Source of the DNA: Demequina subtropica
Lineage (GTDB): Bacteria > Actinomycetota > Actinomycetes > Actinomycetales > Demequinaceae
Direction of reading: 5' to 3'
NCBI RefSeq assembly: GCF_000971235.1
Contig: NZ_BBMB01000014.1
Location: 1-64,000 of the forward strand
DNA: 64,000 nt
The notes under the pieces were generated by a model. It made no database searches and was not told the DNA's origin. It saw only the letters and a list, made by a program, of their open reading frames with translations. Shown here piece by piece: positions 3,995-46,267 of this stretch (the stretch's first letter is position 1; every line of letters begins with the position of its first letter). The translations under genes were made by a program, and so were the position numbers.

Positions 3995-5457
3995 CCGCCG
4001 TCGCCGAGCGCGCGCTGCTCGACTCCGTCCCCACCGGCCTGTACATCGCGGGGGAGTGGACCCAGGCGTCGTCCGGCGCGACGCTCGACGTCGCCGACCC
4101 GTCGACGGGCGAGGTGCTCGCGAGCATCGCCGACGCGACGCCGGACGATGCGCGGCGCGCACTCGACGCGGCCGTCGCCGCGCAGGGCGCGTGGGCCGCG
4201 ACGGCGCCCCGCGTGCGCGGCGAGATCCTGCGCAAGGCGTTCGAGCTGGTGCGCGAGCGCGCGGAGGACTTCGCGCTGCTCATGACGCTCGAGATGGGCA
4301 AGCCGCTCGCCGAGGCGCGCGGCGAGGTCGCCTACGGCAACGAGTTCCTGCGGTGGTTCTCCGAGGAGGCCGTCCGGATCACCGGGCGCTTCGGCCCCAA
4401 CCCCGAGGGCACCGGCACGATGGTCGTCTCGCAGCGCCCCGTGGGGCCGAGCTACCTCATCACCCCGTGGAACTTCCCCCTCGCGATGGCCACGCGCAAG
4501 ATCGCCCCCGCGCTCGCCGCGGGCTGCACCGTCGTCGTGAAGCCGGCCGCGCTCACGCCGCTCACCACGCTGCTGCTGGCCTCGGTGCTCGAGGAGGCGG
4601 GCGTCCCCGCCGGGGTGGTCAACGTGTTGACCACCTCCCGCTCGGGGGCCGTCTCGGAGCCCATCATCTCCGATCCGCGCCTGCGCAAGCTCTCCTTCAC
4701 CGGGTCGACCGAGGTGGGTCGCGCGCTGCTCAAGCAGGCCGCCGACGGCGTGCTGCGTGTGTCGATGGAGCTGGGCGGCAACGCTCCGTTCCTCGTGTTC
4801 GAGGACGCGGACCTGGACAAGGCCGTCGAGGGCGCCCTCATGGCCAAGTTCCGCAACATCGGTCAGGCCTGCACGGCCGCCAACCGGTTCATCGTGCACG
4901 CCTCCGTCGCCGACGAGTTCGCGCGCCGCGTCGCGGAGCGCGTCGCGGGGATGAAGGTGGGCCGCGGCACCGAGGACGGCGTCACCATCGGCCCGCTCAT
5001 CGACGACCGCGCCGTCGCGACGTCGCTCGCCCTGGTGGACGATGCGGTGGCCAAGGGCGCCACTGTCGCCGCCGGCGGCAAGGCGGTCGACGGGCCAGGC
5101 AGCTTCGTCGAGCCGACCGTGCTCACGGGCGTGCAGCCGGGCTCCGAGATCCTCACCACCGAGATCTTTGGGCCCGTGCTCGCGATCGCGACCTTCGAGA
5201 CCGAGGAGGAGGCGATCGCGCTCGCGAACGCCACCGAGTACGGCCTGGTCTCGTACGCCTTCACACAGGACCTGGCGCGCGGGCACCGCCTCATCGATCG
5301 GCTCGACACCGGGATGATGGGCCTCAACGCGGGCGTGGTGTCCAACGCGGCCGCGCCGTTCGGCGGCGTCAAGCAGTCCGGCATCGGCCGCGAGGGCGGC
5401 CTCGAGGGCATCCACGAGTACCTGTCGACCAAGTACACCCTGATCCCGGCGGGCTGA
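3991..5457 (+). CDS. gabD: Succinate-semialdehyde dehydrogenase (aldehyde dehydrogenase)
   Basis: 488 residues, aldehyde dehydrogenase superfamily. It oxidises the succinate semialdehyde made by GabT to succinate with NAD(P)+. Seen: TPWNFPLAM, the Rossmann element FTGSTEVGRALL, the general-base region SMELGGNAPF and the catalytic Cys in FRNIGQACTAANRF. The C-terminal FGGVKQSGIGREGG is typical of GabD proteins. It begins inside the gabT stop codon (ATGA), so the two form one transcript. Length is normal for the family. Confidence is high because of the gabT coupling. Confidence 0.92.
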   Translation: MTAVAERALLDSVPTGLYIAGEWTQASSGATLDVADPSTGEVLASIADATPDDARRALDAAVAAQGAWAATAPRVRGEILRKAFELVRERAEDFALLMTLEMGKPLAEARGEVAYGNEFLRWFSEEAVRITGRFGPNPEGTGTMVVSQRPVGPSYLITPWNFPLAMATRKIAPALAAGCTVVVKPAALTPLTTLLLASVLEEAGVPAGVVNVLTTSRSGAVSEPIISDPRLRKLSFTGSTEVGRALLKQAADGVLRVSMELGGNAPFLVFEDADLDKAVEGALMAKFRNIGQACTAANRFIVHASVADEFARRVAERVAGMKVGRGTEDGVTIGPLIDDRAVATSLALVDDAVAKGATVAAGGKAVDGPGSFVEPTVLTGVQPGSEILTTEIFGPVLAIATFETEEEAIALANATEYGLVSYAFTQDLARGHRLIDRLDTGMMGLNAGVVSNAAAPFGGVKQSGIGREGGLEGIHEYLSTKYTLIPAG

Positions 5458-5500: not shown

Positions 5501-6865
5501 ATGTCCGGCTACGCAGTAGTGAACCCGGCCACCGGCGAGCGCCTGGCCGACTACCCGACGATGTCCGAGGCGGACGTCGAGACCGCGCTCGCGGCCGCCG
5601 ACGGCGCGTACCGGGGGTGGTTGCGCTCGTCCACGGTCGAGGAGCGTGCCGCGCTGGTGCGTCGCGTCGCCGAGCTGCACCGTGAGCGTCGCGAGGAGCT
5701 CGCGGCGATCATCGTGCGCGAGATGGGCAAGCCCCTCTCGCACGCGCTGGGCGAGGTGGACTTCGCCGCGGACATCACCGAGTACTACGCGGACAACGCG
5801 GAGAAGGTCACGGGCGACACCCCCATCGACATCCTGGGCGAGGGCACCGCGGTGATCCGCCGCAGCCCGCTGGGCGCGCTGCTCGGCATCATGCCGTGGA
5901 ACTTCCCCTACTACCAGGTGGCACGCTTCGCGGCGCCGAACATCGTGGTGGGCAACGCGATCGTGCTCAAGCACGCGCCGCAGTGCCCCGAGTCGGCCGC
6001 CGCGATCGAGCAGATGTACCGCGACGCGGGCTTCCCCGAGGGCGTCTACGTCAACGTCTACGCCTCGAACGAGCAGGCCGCGACGATGATCGCCGACCCG
6101 CGCATCGCGGGCGTCTCGGTCACGGGCTCGGAGCGTGCCGGGTCCGCCGTCGCGTCGCTCGCGGGTCAGCACCTCAAGAAGGTGGCGCTCGAGCTCGGCG
6201 GCTCGGACCCGTTCATCGTGCTGTCGACGGACGACCTGGACGCCGTCGTGGAAGGCGCCGTCGAGGCCCGCATGGACAACTCGGGCCAGTCCTGCAACGC
6301 GCCCAAGCGCTTCATCATCATCGACTCGCTCTACGACGAGTTCCTCGAGAAGTTCACGGCCGCGATGGTCGCGTGCACCGCGGGCGACCCGTTCGCGGAG
6401 GAGAGCGTCATCGGGCCCCTGTCCTCGCTCGCCGCGGCGGAGCGCCTCGACGCGCAGGTGTCCAAGGCGGTCGAGCAGGGCGCGACCCTGGTGGCAGGCG
6501 GCACCCGTGACGGCGCGTTCTTCGAGCCGACCGTCCTCACGGGCGTCACCAAGGACATGGACGTCTACCGCGAGGAGCTCTTCGGGCCCGCGGCGGCCGT
6601 GTACAAGGTGGCCTCGGAGGAGGAGGCGGTCGCGCTGGCCAACGACACGGCGTTCGGCCTCGGCTCGTACGTCTACACGACCGACCCCGAGCAGGCCGAG
6701 CGCATCGCGGACGCGATCGAGGCCGGCATGGTCTACGTCAACTGCGTGCTCGCTGACAGCCCCGAGCTGCCGTTCGGCGGCGTGAAGCGCTCCGGCACCT
6801 CGCGCGAGATGGGCCTCCTCGCCGCGGACGAGTTCGTCAACAAGAAGCTCATCCGCATCGCCTGA
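5501..6865 (+). CDS. Second succinate-semialdehyde/aldehyde dehydrogenase (GabD1-like)
   Basis: 454 residues, a shorter aldehyde dehydrogenase subfamily resembling actinobacterial NADP-dependent GabD1. Seen: [42 protein letters not shown] with the general-base Glu, and catalytic Cys in [13 protein letters not shown] good AAGGAGA ribosome site precedes the ATG at 5501, 43 nt after gabD, so it is probably cotranscribed but translated independently. Having two dehydrogenases behind one aminotransferase suggests different cofactor or semialdehyde preference; which one serves GABA cannot be decided from sequence. A near-perfect 15-bp hairpin follows, closing the operon. Confidence 0.85.
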
Positions 6866-42863: not shown

Positions 42864-42896
42864 ACGAGGCCCCGGTCCAGCGGACCGGGGCCTCGT
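42864..42896. terminator. Terminator between convergent genes
   Basis: A perfect 15-bp stem ACGAGGCCCCGGTCC with a 3-nt loop, between the dehydratase gene and the converging binding-protein gene. Confidence 0.7.
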
Positions 42897-42913: not shown

Positions 42914-43918
42914 TCAGCCGAGCTCGCCGTCCGAGCTGAACACGAGACCGACCATCACCTGGCCCTGGCGCAGCGCGTTCTTGGTGAGCGGCCCGCCCGC
43001 GTCGAGCGAGTCGAACTGCGCGACCTCGAGGCCGTACTCCTCCTCGAGCCCGATCTGGCAGAACGGGCGCTCGGGGCACTCGGGAGGCCCGCCGAGCGAG
43101 ATGGTGCCGCAGGTCTCCGCGAGCCCGGTGAGGGACGTGACGCCGTACTCCTCCGAGAACGCGGTGGTGACGGCGAATGCGTTCTGGTCCTGAGCGGCCG
43201 AGGGGGCGCCGAAGACGAGCCCCGCGTCGGTCGCGAGCGGCTCGAGCGCGGCGACGGTCGCGTCGACGTCGCCCGAAGCCACGGGCTCCGCGTCCGCGCC
43301 GTTCGCGGCCAGGTTGAGGTACTCCGTCACGGTCGCCGCGTACTCCGGGACCACCTGGATCTCGCCGCTCTCGAGCGCGGGCAGGTACGTCTCGCGGGAG
43401 CCGATGGTCCGCACCTCCGTGTCCCAGCCGGCGGCGTCCAGCACGGCGGCGTAGATCTCCGCGACCGTGATGTTCTCGGAGAAGTTCGCGGCGCCGATGA
43501 CGATCGATCCGGAGCCCTCGTCGGGTGCCGCGATCGAGTTGTCCGCGACGAACTGCGTCGCCGCCTCCTGGGAGGTCGCGCGATCGATGTCCACCGCCTT
43601 GTTGAGCGCGATCAGGTCGTCCGTGGTGAGCACCGCGGACACCGCGTCGAGCGCCGCGATCAGCTCGGGGGTCGCGGCGTCCCCGTTGATCGCCGGGATC
43701 ACGTTGTCGGCGTTCTGCAGCATCGCATCGTCCTCGAGGACCACGAGCGTGTCTCCCGGCACGGGCTGGCACTCCTGGGCCATGGAACCGCCGGAGGTCG
43801 AGCCCATGGTCGAGGCGTCGTTGCTCTCCAGTGGAAGCGTGTCGGAGCCGGAGCTGCAGCCGGCGAGCAGCAGGACCGCGGTGGCGGTGCCCGCAAGGAT
43901 GGCGTTCGTGCTTCTCAT
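42914..43918 (-). CDS. Glycine betaine/choline-type substrate-binding lipoprotein, apparently circularly permuted
   Basis: 334 residues. Lipoprotein signal MRSTNAILAGTATAVLLLAGC. In usual OpuBC/OpuCC proteins the domain runs from a GSKNFTEQ-type opening to TTDG, then VVLEDDK...PVV, and ends with LN-x-VD. Here the VVLEDDAMLQNADNVIP ... LNKAVDIDR part comes first (about residues 58-115), IVIGAANFSENITVAEIYAA starts near residue 139, and the protein ends VMVGLVFSSDGELG, exactly where VVLEDD would normally follow. So the order is C-part then N-part. Binding function should be kept. The two permeases upstream on the same strand and the divergent ATPase complete the importer. Confidence 0.85.
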   Translation of the reverse strand: MRSTNAILAGTATAVLLLAGCSSGSDTLPLESNDASTMGSTSGGSMAQECQPVPGDTLVVLEDDAMLQNADNVIPAINGDAATPELIAALDAVSAVLTTDDLIALNKAVDIDRATSQEAATQFVADNSIAAPDEGSGSIVIGAANFSENITVAEIYAAVLDAAGWDTEVRTIGSRETYLPALESGEIQVVPEYAATVTEYLNLAANGADAEPVASGDVDATVAALEPLATDAGLVFGAPSAAQDQNAFAVTTAFSEEYGVTSLTGLAETCGTISLGGPPECPERPFCQIGLEEEYGLEVAQFDSLDAGGPLTKNALRQGQVMVGLVFSSDGELG

Positions 43919-44058: not shown

Positions 44059-44790
44059 TCAGGCGGCGGCGACCGTGGTCGCGCGCAGGGGGAGGGGCGT
44101 CGCGACGCGCTGGGCCCGGCTGAGCAGCTGGTCGATCCCGAGGCACAGCGCCGCGATGAGGATCCCCCCGGCGAGCACCTGACCGTAGCGCTGCGTCGCG
44201 ACGCCGGTGTTGATGATCACGCCCAGCCCGCCGCCCGCGACCAGCGCGGCGAGGGGCACGGTGGCGACGGTCTGCGTGGTGGAGGTGCGCAGGCCCGCCG
44301 CGATGAGCGGCACCGCGAGCGGCAGCTCGACGCGCAGCGCCACCTGGCGACGTGTCATCCCTTGGCCGAACGCCGCCTCGCGCACGTCCGCGTCGACGCC
44401 GGCCATGCCGGTGAAGGTGTTGGTGAGGATGGGCGGGAACGCGAAGATCGCGGCGGCGATGATCACCGCGCGGTTCCCGAAGCCGATCGCGGAGGCGGAG
44501 AACAGCGTGAGCAGCGCGAGCGTGGGCATGGCGCGCGACACGTTCGAGATCACGGTGGTCGCCCCGCCGCCTCGGCGGATGTGCCCCAGCCACAGGCCCA
44601 GCGGCAGCGCGAGCGCGGCCGCGATCGCGACGGCCGCGAAGGACATGTAGAGGTGCTCGATCGCGAGCGCGATGATCGAGTCCTGCTGGAAGCGCGGGGA
44701 GCCGTCGAGGTTGGTGCCGAACATGCCGTGCGCGCCCGTCCAGCTGACGGGGTCGGTGAGGTACTCCCACGCGTCGCCGATGCTGCTCAT
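44059..44790 (-). CDS. Compatible-solute ABC importer permease (OpuBB/OpuBD-like), second
   Basis: 243 residues, about six helices, with the permease loop AAFGQGMTRRQVALRVELPLAVPLIAAGLR (EAA motif). The N-terminal 30 residues are hydrophilic. The start at 44790 overlaps the stop of the first permease gene (ATGA). It pairs with the other permease as a heterodimeric channel for glycine betaine, choline, carnitine or similar solutes. Confidence 0.88.
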   Translation of the reverse strand: MSSIGDAWEYLTDPVSWTGAHGMFGTNLDGSPRFQQDSIIALAIEHLYMSFAAVAIAAALALPLGLWLGHIRRGGGATTVISNVSRAMPTLALLTLFSASAIGFGNRAVIIAAAIFAFPPILTNTFTGMAGVDADVREAAFGQGMTRRQVALRVELPLAVPLIAAGLRTSTTQTVATVPLAALVAGGGLGVIINTGVATQRYGQVLAGGILIAALCLGIDQLLSRAQRVATPLPLRATTVAAA

Positions 44791-45452
44791 GCGACGGCGC
44801 TCCTCGCGCGCGAGCGCGCCCACGGCATCGCCCACCGTGCCGCCAGCACCAGGAGCAGGTCGAGCACGAGCGCGAGCGCGAGGCACAGCAGCGCGCTGGT
44901 GGCGATCTGCGCGCGGTAGTTCGACTGCATGCCCCGGAACATCAGCTGACCGAGCCCGCCATAGCCCACCACCACACCCACGGTCACGAGCGCGACGGTG
45001 GAGACGGTGGCGATCCGCAGCCCGGCGACGATGCTGGGCAGCGCGTTGGGGAGCTCGACGGTGAGCAGCAGACGGGTGGGGGAGTAGCCCAGCCCGCGCG
45101 CCGCGTCGACAACGTCGGGGTCGACCCCCTGGAGACCGACGAGCGTGTTCCGCACGAGCACGAGCAGCGCGTATGCGACCAGGCCGATGAGCACCGTGGT
45201 GCGTCCGATCCCGGTGAAGGGCGCGAGCAGCGCGAACAGCGCGAACGACGGCACCGTGTAGAGCACCCCGGTGAGCCCGAGGATGGGGCCGGACAGCCGC
45301 GGCGAGCGGCGCGCGAGCATCGCCATGGGCAGCGCGAGCGCGATCGCGATGAGCATCGCCTCGACCGTGAGCGTCGCGTGGATCTGGAGATGCTCCCAGA
45401 CCTCGCCGCCGCTGCGGCGCAGGTAGTCGAGCGACAGCCAGGGGTTATCCAC
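44787..45452 (-). CDS. Compatible-solute ABC importer permease, first
   Basis: 221 residues with about six helices and the EAA loop DAARGLGYSPTRLLLTVELPNALPSIVAGLR. The GTG at 45452 is 6 nt after the minus-strand hexamer TACGGT (45459-45464), leaderless. It heads the operon permease-permease-binding protein, read away from the divergent ATPase. Confidence 0.88.
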   Translation of the reverse strand: MDNPWLSLDYLRRSGGEVWEHLQIHATLTVEAMLIAIALALPMAMLARRSPRLSGPILGLTGVLYTVPSFALFALLAPFTGIGRTTVLIGLVAYALLVLVRNTLVGLQGVDPDVVDAARGLGYSPTRLLLTVELPNALPSIVAGLRIATVSTVALVTVGVVVGYGGLGQLMFRGMQSNYRAQIATSALLCLALALVLDLLLVLAARWAMPWARSRARSAVA

Positions 45453-45458
45453 CCTTCG

Positions 45459-45505
45459 ACCGTACACGGCGGGTCCGACGGGCCCTGGGGCGGTCACGCT
45501 ACGGT
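45459..45505. promoter_or_regulatory. Divergent leaderless promoters of the solute importer
   Basis: TACGGT occurs on the minus strand at 45459-45464 and on the plus strand at 45500-45505, each 6 nt before a start codon (45452 and 45512). The 59-bp gap therefore holds two back-to-back promoters, so one regulator here could control both halves of the importer. Confidence 0.55.
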
Positions 45506-45511
45506 GGACCG

Positions 45512-46267
<756 letters not shown>

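Follow-up and report, generated by a model that had tools for sequence, protein, structure and literature searches.

The window analysed here is a stretch of 64,000 nucleotides from Demequina subtropica (contig NZ_BBMB01000014.1), in which one locus brings together all the parts of an ABC importer: a pair of permeases, the ATPase and a binding protein that is a lipoprotein (Table 1). The binding-protein gene sits downstream of both permease genes, while the ATPase gene is divergent from the permeases, and its product scores 289.5 bits against the ProV subfamily model, whose cut-off is 326.6. The ORF of the binding protein encodes a lipoprotein of 334 residues (plus the stop), whose chain is divided here into the segments C, N1 and N2. 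The order N1-N2-C is referred to as canonical or linear, and the order C-N1-N2 of this protein as window-type.

Around the binding-protein gene, a consensus scan revealed neither a sigma-70 promoter nor a U-tract terminator. Between this gene and an epimerase gene, whose ends converge, stands a perfect hairpin (42864-42896; stem of 15 bp, loop of 3 bases); it has no U-tract, is absent from the list given by the scan and is possibly a two-way terminator. The same genome carries a second OpuAC-family gene of linear order (G000:C10:67896-68636, minus strand, 197.5 bits), situated outside the window at about 24 kb from the permuted gene, and a third, weak match (C18:52492-52947).

Table 1. Features of the importer locus, with positions in the window
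Feature	Position	Strand	Basis
Permuted substrate-binding lipoprotein gene, order C-N1-N2	42914..43918	-	ORF, Pfam and ProX alignment
Signal peptide and lipobox LAGC with lipid-bearing Cys21, residues 1-21	43856..43918	-	Sequence, lipobox pattern search
Linker carrying Cys50 (codon 43769-43771), residues 22-57	43748..43855	-	Sequence, cysteine count
Segment C, residues 58-128, C-terminal in linear relatives	43535..43747	-	Pfam and ProX alignment
Joining linker from old C-terminus to old N-terminus, residues 129-136	43511..43534	-	ProX alignment, linear relatives
Segment N1, residues 137-258, usual opening and first interdomain linker	43145..43510	-	Pfam and ProX alignment
Segment N2, residues 260-332, with Cys270, Cys281, Arg284 and Cys287; SSDG at its end	42923..43141	-	Alignments
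New C-terminus at the break; linear relatives run on into segment C	42914..42925	-	Comparison with relatives
ABC permease TMD1; true start may be downstream of the listed GTG	44059..44886	-	PF00528
ABC permease TMD2; true start may be downstream of the listed GTG	44787..45497	-	PF00528
ABC ATPase, divergent; below the cut-off of its nearest model (proV subfamily)	45512..46267	+	Profile match

A sequence-only reading of this DNA had proposed that the binding protein is a circular permutation of the OpuAC fold, with the usual C-terminal segment placed first and the chain ending at SSDGELG, where it should go on. Profile and pairwise searches bear this out. As a whole, the protein scores 118.3 bits with the Pfam family PF04069 (OpuAC), over its cut-off of 21.2 bits, and the match is made of two pieces on the same strand, both above that cut-off: profile positions 2-183 fall at 42920-43507 (87.3 bits) and positions 188-256 at 43544-43747 (32.8 bits). 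The order of the parts is broken, positions 188-256 coming before 2-183 in the protein; as homology does not require the order, it has been filed as a permuted member of PF04069. Similarly, in A. fulgidus ProX (1sw1; phmmer E 5e-14), residues 4-193 align to query residues 135-330 and residues 201-272 to query residues 58-128, the latter piece being weak alone (15.2 bits). The C-terminal part of OpuAC/ProX thus corresponds to residues 58-128, and its N-terminal and middle parts to residues 135-333. The chain opens with what is normally the last quarter of the protein and stops right after SSDG, its end being SSDGELG and the stop codon; at this point linear relatives do continue, for example with SSDGGVAAFNLVVLTDD in L096.

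Moreover, an AlphaFold model was obtained from a 30-row alignment of window-type proteins (mean pLDDT 91.3, pTM 0.84), numbered from the mature protein, so that 20 has to be added for the full-length one. The structural alignment employed is sequence-ordered and unable to follow a permutation, which is why the model is split into pieces. Canonical relatives match its residues 115-314, with 3mam aligned over 189 residues (Z 14.3, rmsd 1.9, model residues 117-314) and 4z7e over 188 (Z 14.4, rmsd 1.9), and B. subtilis OpuAC (2b4l) matches residues 24-248 only (Z 17.0, rmsd 5.2, 191 aligned). The halves of the model are thus recognised in separate pieces by the canonical relatives and by OpuAC, and such split matches fit a permutant with a break other than that of OpuAC. 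The swapped Pfam and ProX pieces, together with the confident model, confirm the protein as a circular permutant of the OpuAC/ProX fold.

The same order has been found well beyond this gene. In a genus search of 44 genomes, its own included, 42 gave a match: an unbroken one, from query residue 8 or earlier to 333-334, in 36, and only partial, split or weak ones in six, among which G037 looks linear; the other two gave none. Conservation on this scale rules out chance as well as an assembly error. The homologue of D. gelatinilytica (L005) matches at 96%. In D. sediminis (L022) the permuted gene has a frameshift towards the 3' end, near 6850 of the locus, owing to either sequencing error or decay. 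Scanning species genomes yielded 201 confirmed relatives; the best 80 of the 201 were kept and come from Demequina, Cellulomonas, Oerskovia, Actinotalea, Myceligenerans, Pengzhenrongella, Micromonospora, Actinoplanes and MAGs. The C-N1-N2 order repeats in Demequina, Cellulomonas, Oerskovia, Myceligenerans, Micromonospora and Actinoplanes, and 20 of the 21 loci inspected among the 80 end in SSD[G/A].L, or a close variant, followed by 0-6 residues, L022 with its frameshift being the one left. Among the matches listed, it occurs in 17 of 149 genomes drawn evenly at order level (10 of them of the same genus, and one gene cut by a contig end) and in 17 of 394 genomes at class level; many others hold linear relatives, with the two pieces in canonical succession. 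The homologue survey has recovered the same order in further genera, and the earlier view of it as uncommon holds at phylum scale (2 genomes among the matches listed, 396 searched) but not in several actinomycete genera, where it is regular. On plasmids, none of the 347 records with a match covers 80% of the query. A Mycobacterium ulcerans plasmid (NZ_CP083743.1, hit H9) encodes an annotated glycine betaine binder with a single unbroken match to query residues 58-271, so that its order may also be permuted, with another break.

Furthermore, the family is found reopened at other places within Actinomycetota. In the phylum search at least 11 matches cover C and N1 without interruption and stop early, and two further orders were identified in complete genes: N2-C-N1, termed the 131 type, at nine loci (L135-L143), and N2b-C-N1-N2a, termed the 164 type, at two. 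The 396 phylum genomes were scanned with a doubled profile, in which every circular order appears as a single match. Among the matches listed, starts near 1 or 270 correspond to the linear order (down to 237 with upstream linkers), those near 131 (111-132) are found in 11 genomes, those near 164 in 2, and those at 187-196, the window type, in 2; the match in G606 (positions 167-401) is partial. In one family of 16 genomes, the 131 type is present in 6 and the linear order in 9, two genomes having both, and 3 of the 16 gave no match at threshold. The model of the 131 type (pLDDT 81.4) aligns end to end with 2b4l (Z 20.1, rmsd 3.4, 245 aligned of 268, model residues 3-280), and the 131-type profile reaches 1sw1 residue 135 from both sides. 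L135-L143 have the OpuAC-type break between N1 and N2, whereas the protein at 42914-43918 breaks after N2. The parallel with B. subtilis OpuAC drawn in the earlier reading does not extend to the breakpoint of this protein, but the OpuAC break does occur elsewhere in the phylum.

The different orders share an operon. The arrangement ATP< TMD2> TMD1> SBP> is present at 86 of 93 window-type loci (the remaining seven lacking the full operon within the flanking DNA examined), in 23 of 34 linear rows and at both N2b-C-N1-N2a loci; the same gene order with a codirectional ATPase occurs at 8 of 9 N2-C-N1 loci and in 8 linear rows. The linear orthologues of Actinomycetota (L095-L112, L125-L127, L130-L132) have the order N1-N2-C, lack Cys50 and Cys270 and mostly occupy the same operon place as the window type. 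Among them, L095-L099 compare with window-type proteins at 44-59% in the N segment and 38-56% in the C segment. All six window-type proteins compared are on average closest to this group in the N segment, and five of the six also in the C segment (46-56%), the C segment of L093 giving 38% to L095-L099 and 39% to L110-111. Since linear orthologues occupy the same operon place, an orthologous gene has most likely changed its order in place. Around 103 window-type ORFs, no leftover gene pieces were detected within 600 bases downstream or 900 upstream, nor any ORF with two N1 or two C segments (fused doubles), both at E 0.01; with no such trace, gene duplication followed by trimming stays a presumed route. 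At L110 (G535), two linear binding-protein genes of the family lie head to tail (ORFs at 4902 and 5859), with their frames in the same phase and one stop codon between them, an arrangement that fusion could turn into a C-N1-N2 permutant.

Other origins of the unusual chain order have to be weighed against permutation in place. A linear binding protein preceded by an unrelated N-terminal domain is ruled out for practical purposes, given that residues 58-128 are over the Pfam cut-off, correspond to PF04069 188-256 and ProX 201-272, and have no counterpart after SSDG. As little credit is due to a faulty assembly or annotation, or to gene decay: the frameshifted end of the D. sediminis copy (L022, G023) would agree with it, but the single unbroken match in 36 of the 44 genus genomes and the reappearance of the C-N1-N2 order in separate genera and families do not. 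It is also very improbable that the protein is a chimera, with segment C taken from a paralogous gene and fused before a truncated binding protein. The segment trees are too poorly resolved to prove one shared history, which leaves this origin some room; against it, the N segments (6/6) and C segments (5/6) are both nearest to the same linear group, L095-L099, and linear orthologues are found in the same operon place.

The number of order changes was estimated from a tree of 74 rows. In it the 164 type forms one group (support 100/96), and three changes on branches of good support account for the 131 type, a single clade for this N2-C-N1 order being rejected (p-AU 0.001). The four orders together require five changes, three being the least possible; changes were counted without direction, a return to the linear order also being a permutation. 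L110b was left out for its very long branch, and a 75-row tree including it gave the same counts; among the rows kept, L093 has a long branch, and L094, L142, L144 and L126 are of odd composition. Trees built quickly from one segment, N or C, are weaker; they divide the window type between two places and impose fewer changes on the N2-C-N1 type. The idea that the C-N1-N2 order marks a distinct clade is compatible with the 74-row tree, where 30 of 30 window-type rows are on one side of a branch, but the support of this branch is weak (76/76) and the segment trees split the group.

The window-type order is accompanied by a pair of cysteines. Cys50, located in the new N-terminal linker, and Cys270 (counted from the alignment with a tolerance of three columns) are present in 93 of 93 distinct window-type sequences and in none of the 34 linear ones. 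L093 and L094, the most divergent window-type proteins, carry both, which favours a single origin of the C-N1-N2 order. A second pair, Cys281/Cys287, is shared by all 34 linear proteins and by 90 of the 93 of window type, L023 and L093 lacking both residues and L022 being frameshifted there. In the AlphaFold model, isolated bridge marks appear at model residues 28 and 250, next to and at these two cysteines, and also at other places. Cys50-Cys270 is read here as a putative clamp on the strand that has become the new N-terminus.

As regards the two lobes, the EgtUC linker places are taken, by family equivalence, to fall near query residues 244-246 and 71, and along the ring the stretch from one linker to the other contains all three of the new breaks (near query residues 270, 301 and 330/58). 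In EgtUC itself, N339, Y341 and Y443 belong to its two interdomain linkers according to excerpts of the paper describing it (PMC9732360). Breaks between both interdomain linkers would put the new termini in lobe II, the canonical ones being in lobe I, and since both linkers stay intact the closing motion can be kept. Provided that the break is indeed located between these linkers, the lipid anchor would shift from lobe I to lobe II; the two lobes are alike in fold, which may make lobe II able to accept the termini. The loss of one interdomain hinge through the break was also considered and dropped, as the linker residues reported in the same excerpts place both linkers outside the break.

Thus, the protein at 42914-43918 would have originated from a linear orthologue whose ring N1-N2-C was reopened in the loop between the strands VGLVF-SSDG and LVVLED, the old termini being joined by a short linker, probably by gene duplication and trimming. 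A Cys50-Cys270 disulfide would staple the new N-terminus to lobe II, from which, and not from lobe I, the lipid tether would hang, with linkers and closing motion kept, and the permeases would receive from the protein a small solute, polar or amine-bearing and perhaps other than betaine or choline. As lobe II appears to have been opened at two further places in proteins of the same family from other actinobacteria, the event would be a recurrent one. The chain order, its conservation, the shared place in a conserved operon and the order-linked cysteine pair are established at the level of sequence comparison. Taken as a whole, a binding lipoprotein of a ProX/OpuC-kind ABC importer, permuted in place and belonging to a family in which permutation recurs, is the best explanation and quite a probable one. 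It is moderately likely, in addition, that lobe II is a permutation hot spot, with three breaks and at least five changes, the anchor moved each time, the OpuAC order convergent and the disulfide acting as a clamp.

The nature of the solute was approached through the pocket of A. fulgidus ProX (AfProX), whose aromatic cage we take to be Y63, Y111, Y190 and Y214, with R149 and T66 holding the carboxylate and K13 as a further ligand residue. In the ProX alignment, the carboxylate-holding pair is kept (R149 as R284, T66 as T196), K13 corresponds to A144, and the aromatic cage is largely replaced: Tyr193 of the query is kept, but Y190 has become F327, Y111 N246 and Y214 D71. A local motif places the Asn at the cage position in 32 of 34 linear relatives too, and Asp occupies the position of AfProX Y214 in most linear relatives inspected. 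The OsmF equivalog model NF049931 gives 38.1 bits, with a cut-off of 400. The pocket residues lend no support to the choline/betaine binder named in the sequence-only reading; judged from the alignment, the betaine/choline label is doubtful, and a polar or amine-bearing solute is as likely.

A 'domain dislocation' has reportedly been described for OpuAC and ProX. Excerpts of PMC2395249 deal with permutation among the glycine betaine-binding proteins 2b4l, 1r9l and 1sw1, and a word search of PMC2861598 found none of five words for permutation. B. subtilis OpuAC is also a permutant of the ProX order, with its start outside lobe I and its break about 65 residues earlier in the ring than that of the present protein. 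The linear ProX/OpuC-type proteins (1sw1/3mam, OpuBC, OpuCC, EgtUC and YehZ/OsmF) share fold parts and sequence with the latter, which differs from them in chain order and in most of the cation-pi cage. Outside this fold, excerpts of PMC4990184 describe T. pallidum TpMglB-2 as a circularly permuted binding lipoprotein for which membrane anchoring is raised by its authors as a possible reason; unlike the window type, it is a glucose binder of type I / cluster B fold, with an added fourth hinge crossing. Designed permuted halves appear in excerpts of PMC9815098. In a search of open-licence PMC papers, neither permuted actinobacterial ProX/OpuC proteins nor repeated permutation within one binding-protein family were found; the kind of event is already known, whereas that literature yielded neither this breakpoint, nor a cysteine pair linked to the order, nor the recurrence inside one family.

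It may still be asked whether the order does anything at all, or is a harmless accident of neutral drift, with no effect on tether, docking or stability. The use of the same operon by linear and permuted forms would agree with drift, as would the coexistence of linear and 131-type proteins in one family, two genomes having both; the predicted location of all three new breaks in the same lobe and the fixed cysteine pair of one order speak against it, in a suggestive way only, and on balance drift seems rather unlikely.

If the permuted proteins were to gain from the shifted anchor, the candidate uses are the side facing the permeases and the folding order during export, or there may be no use. 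Sequence methods which assume colinearity cut permuted proteins in two, as happened with PF04069 on this protein. Permutants with close linear orthologues in the same operon place, here at roughly 46-59% identity, are good material for comparing folding, docking and tethering and, if the reopening of one lobe does recur, one can put directly to the test whether permutation brings a gain in tether position, in docking side, in folding order or none at all.
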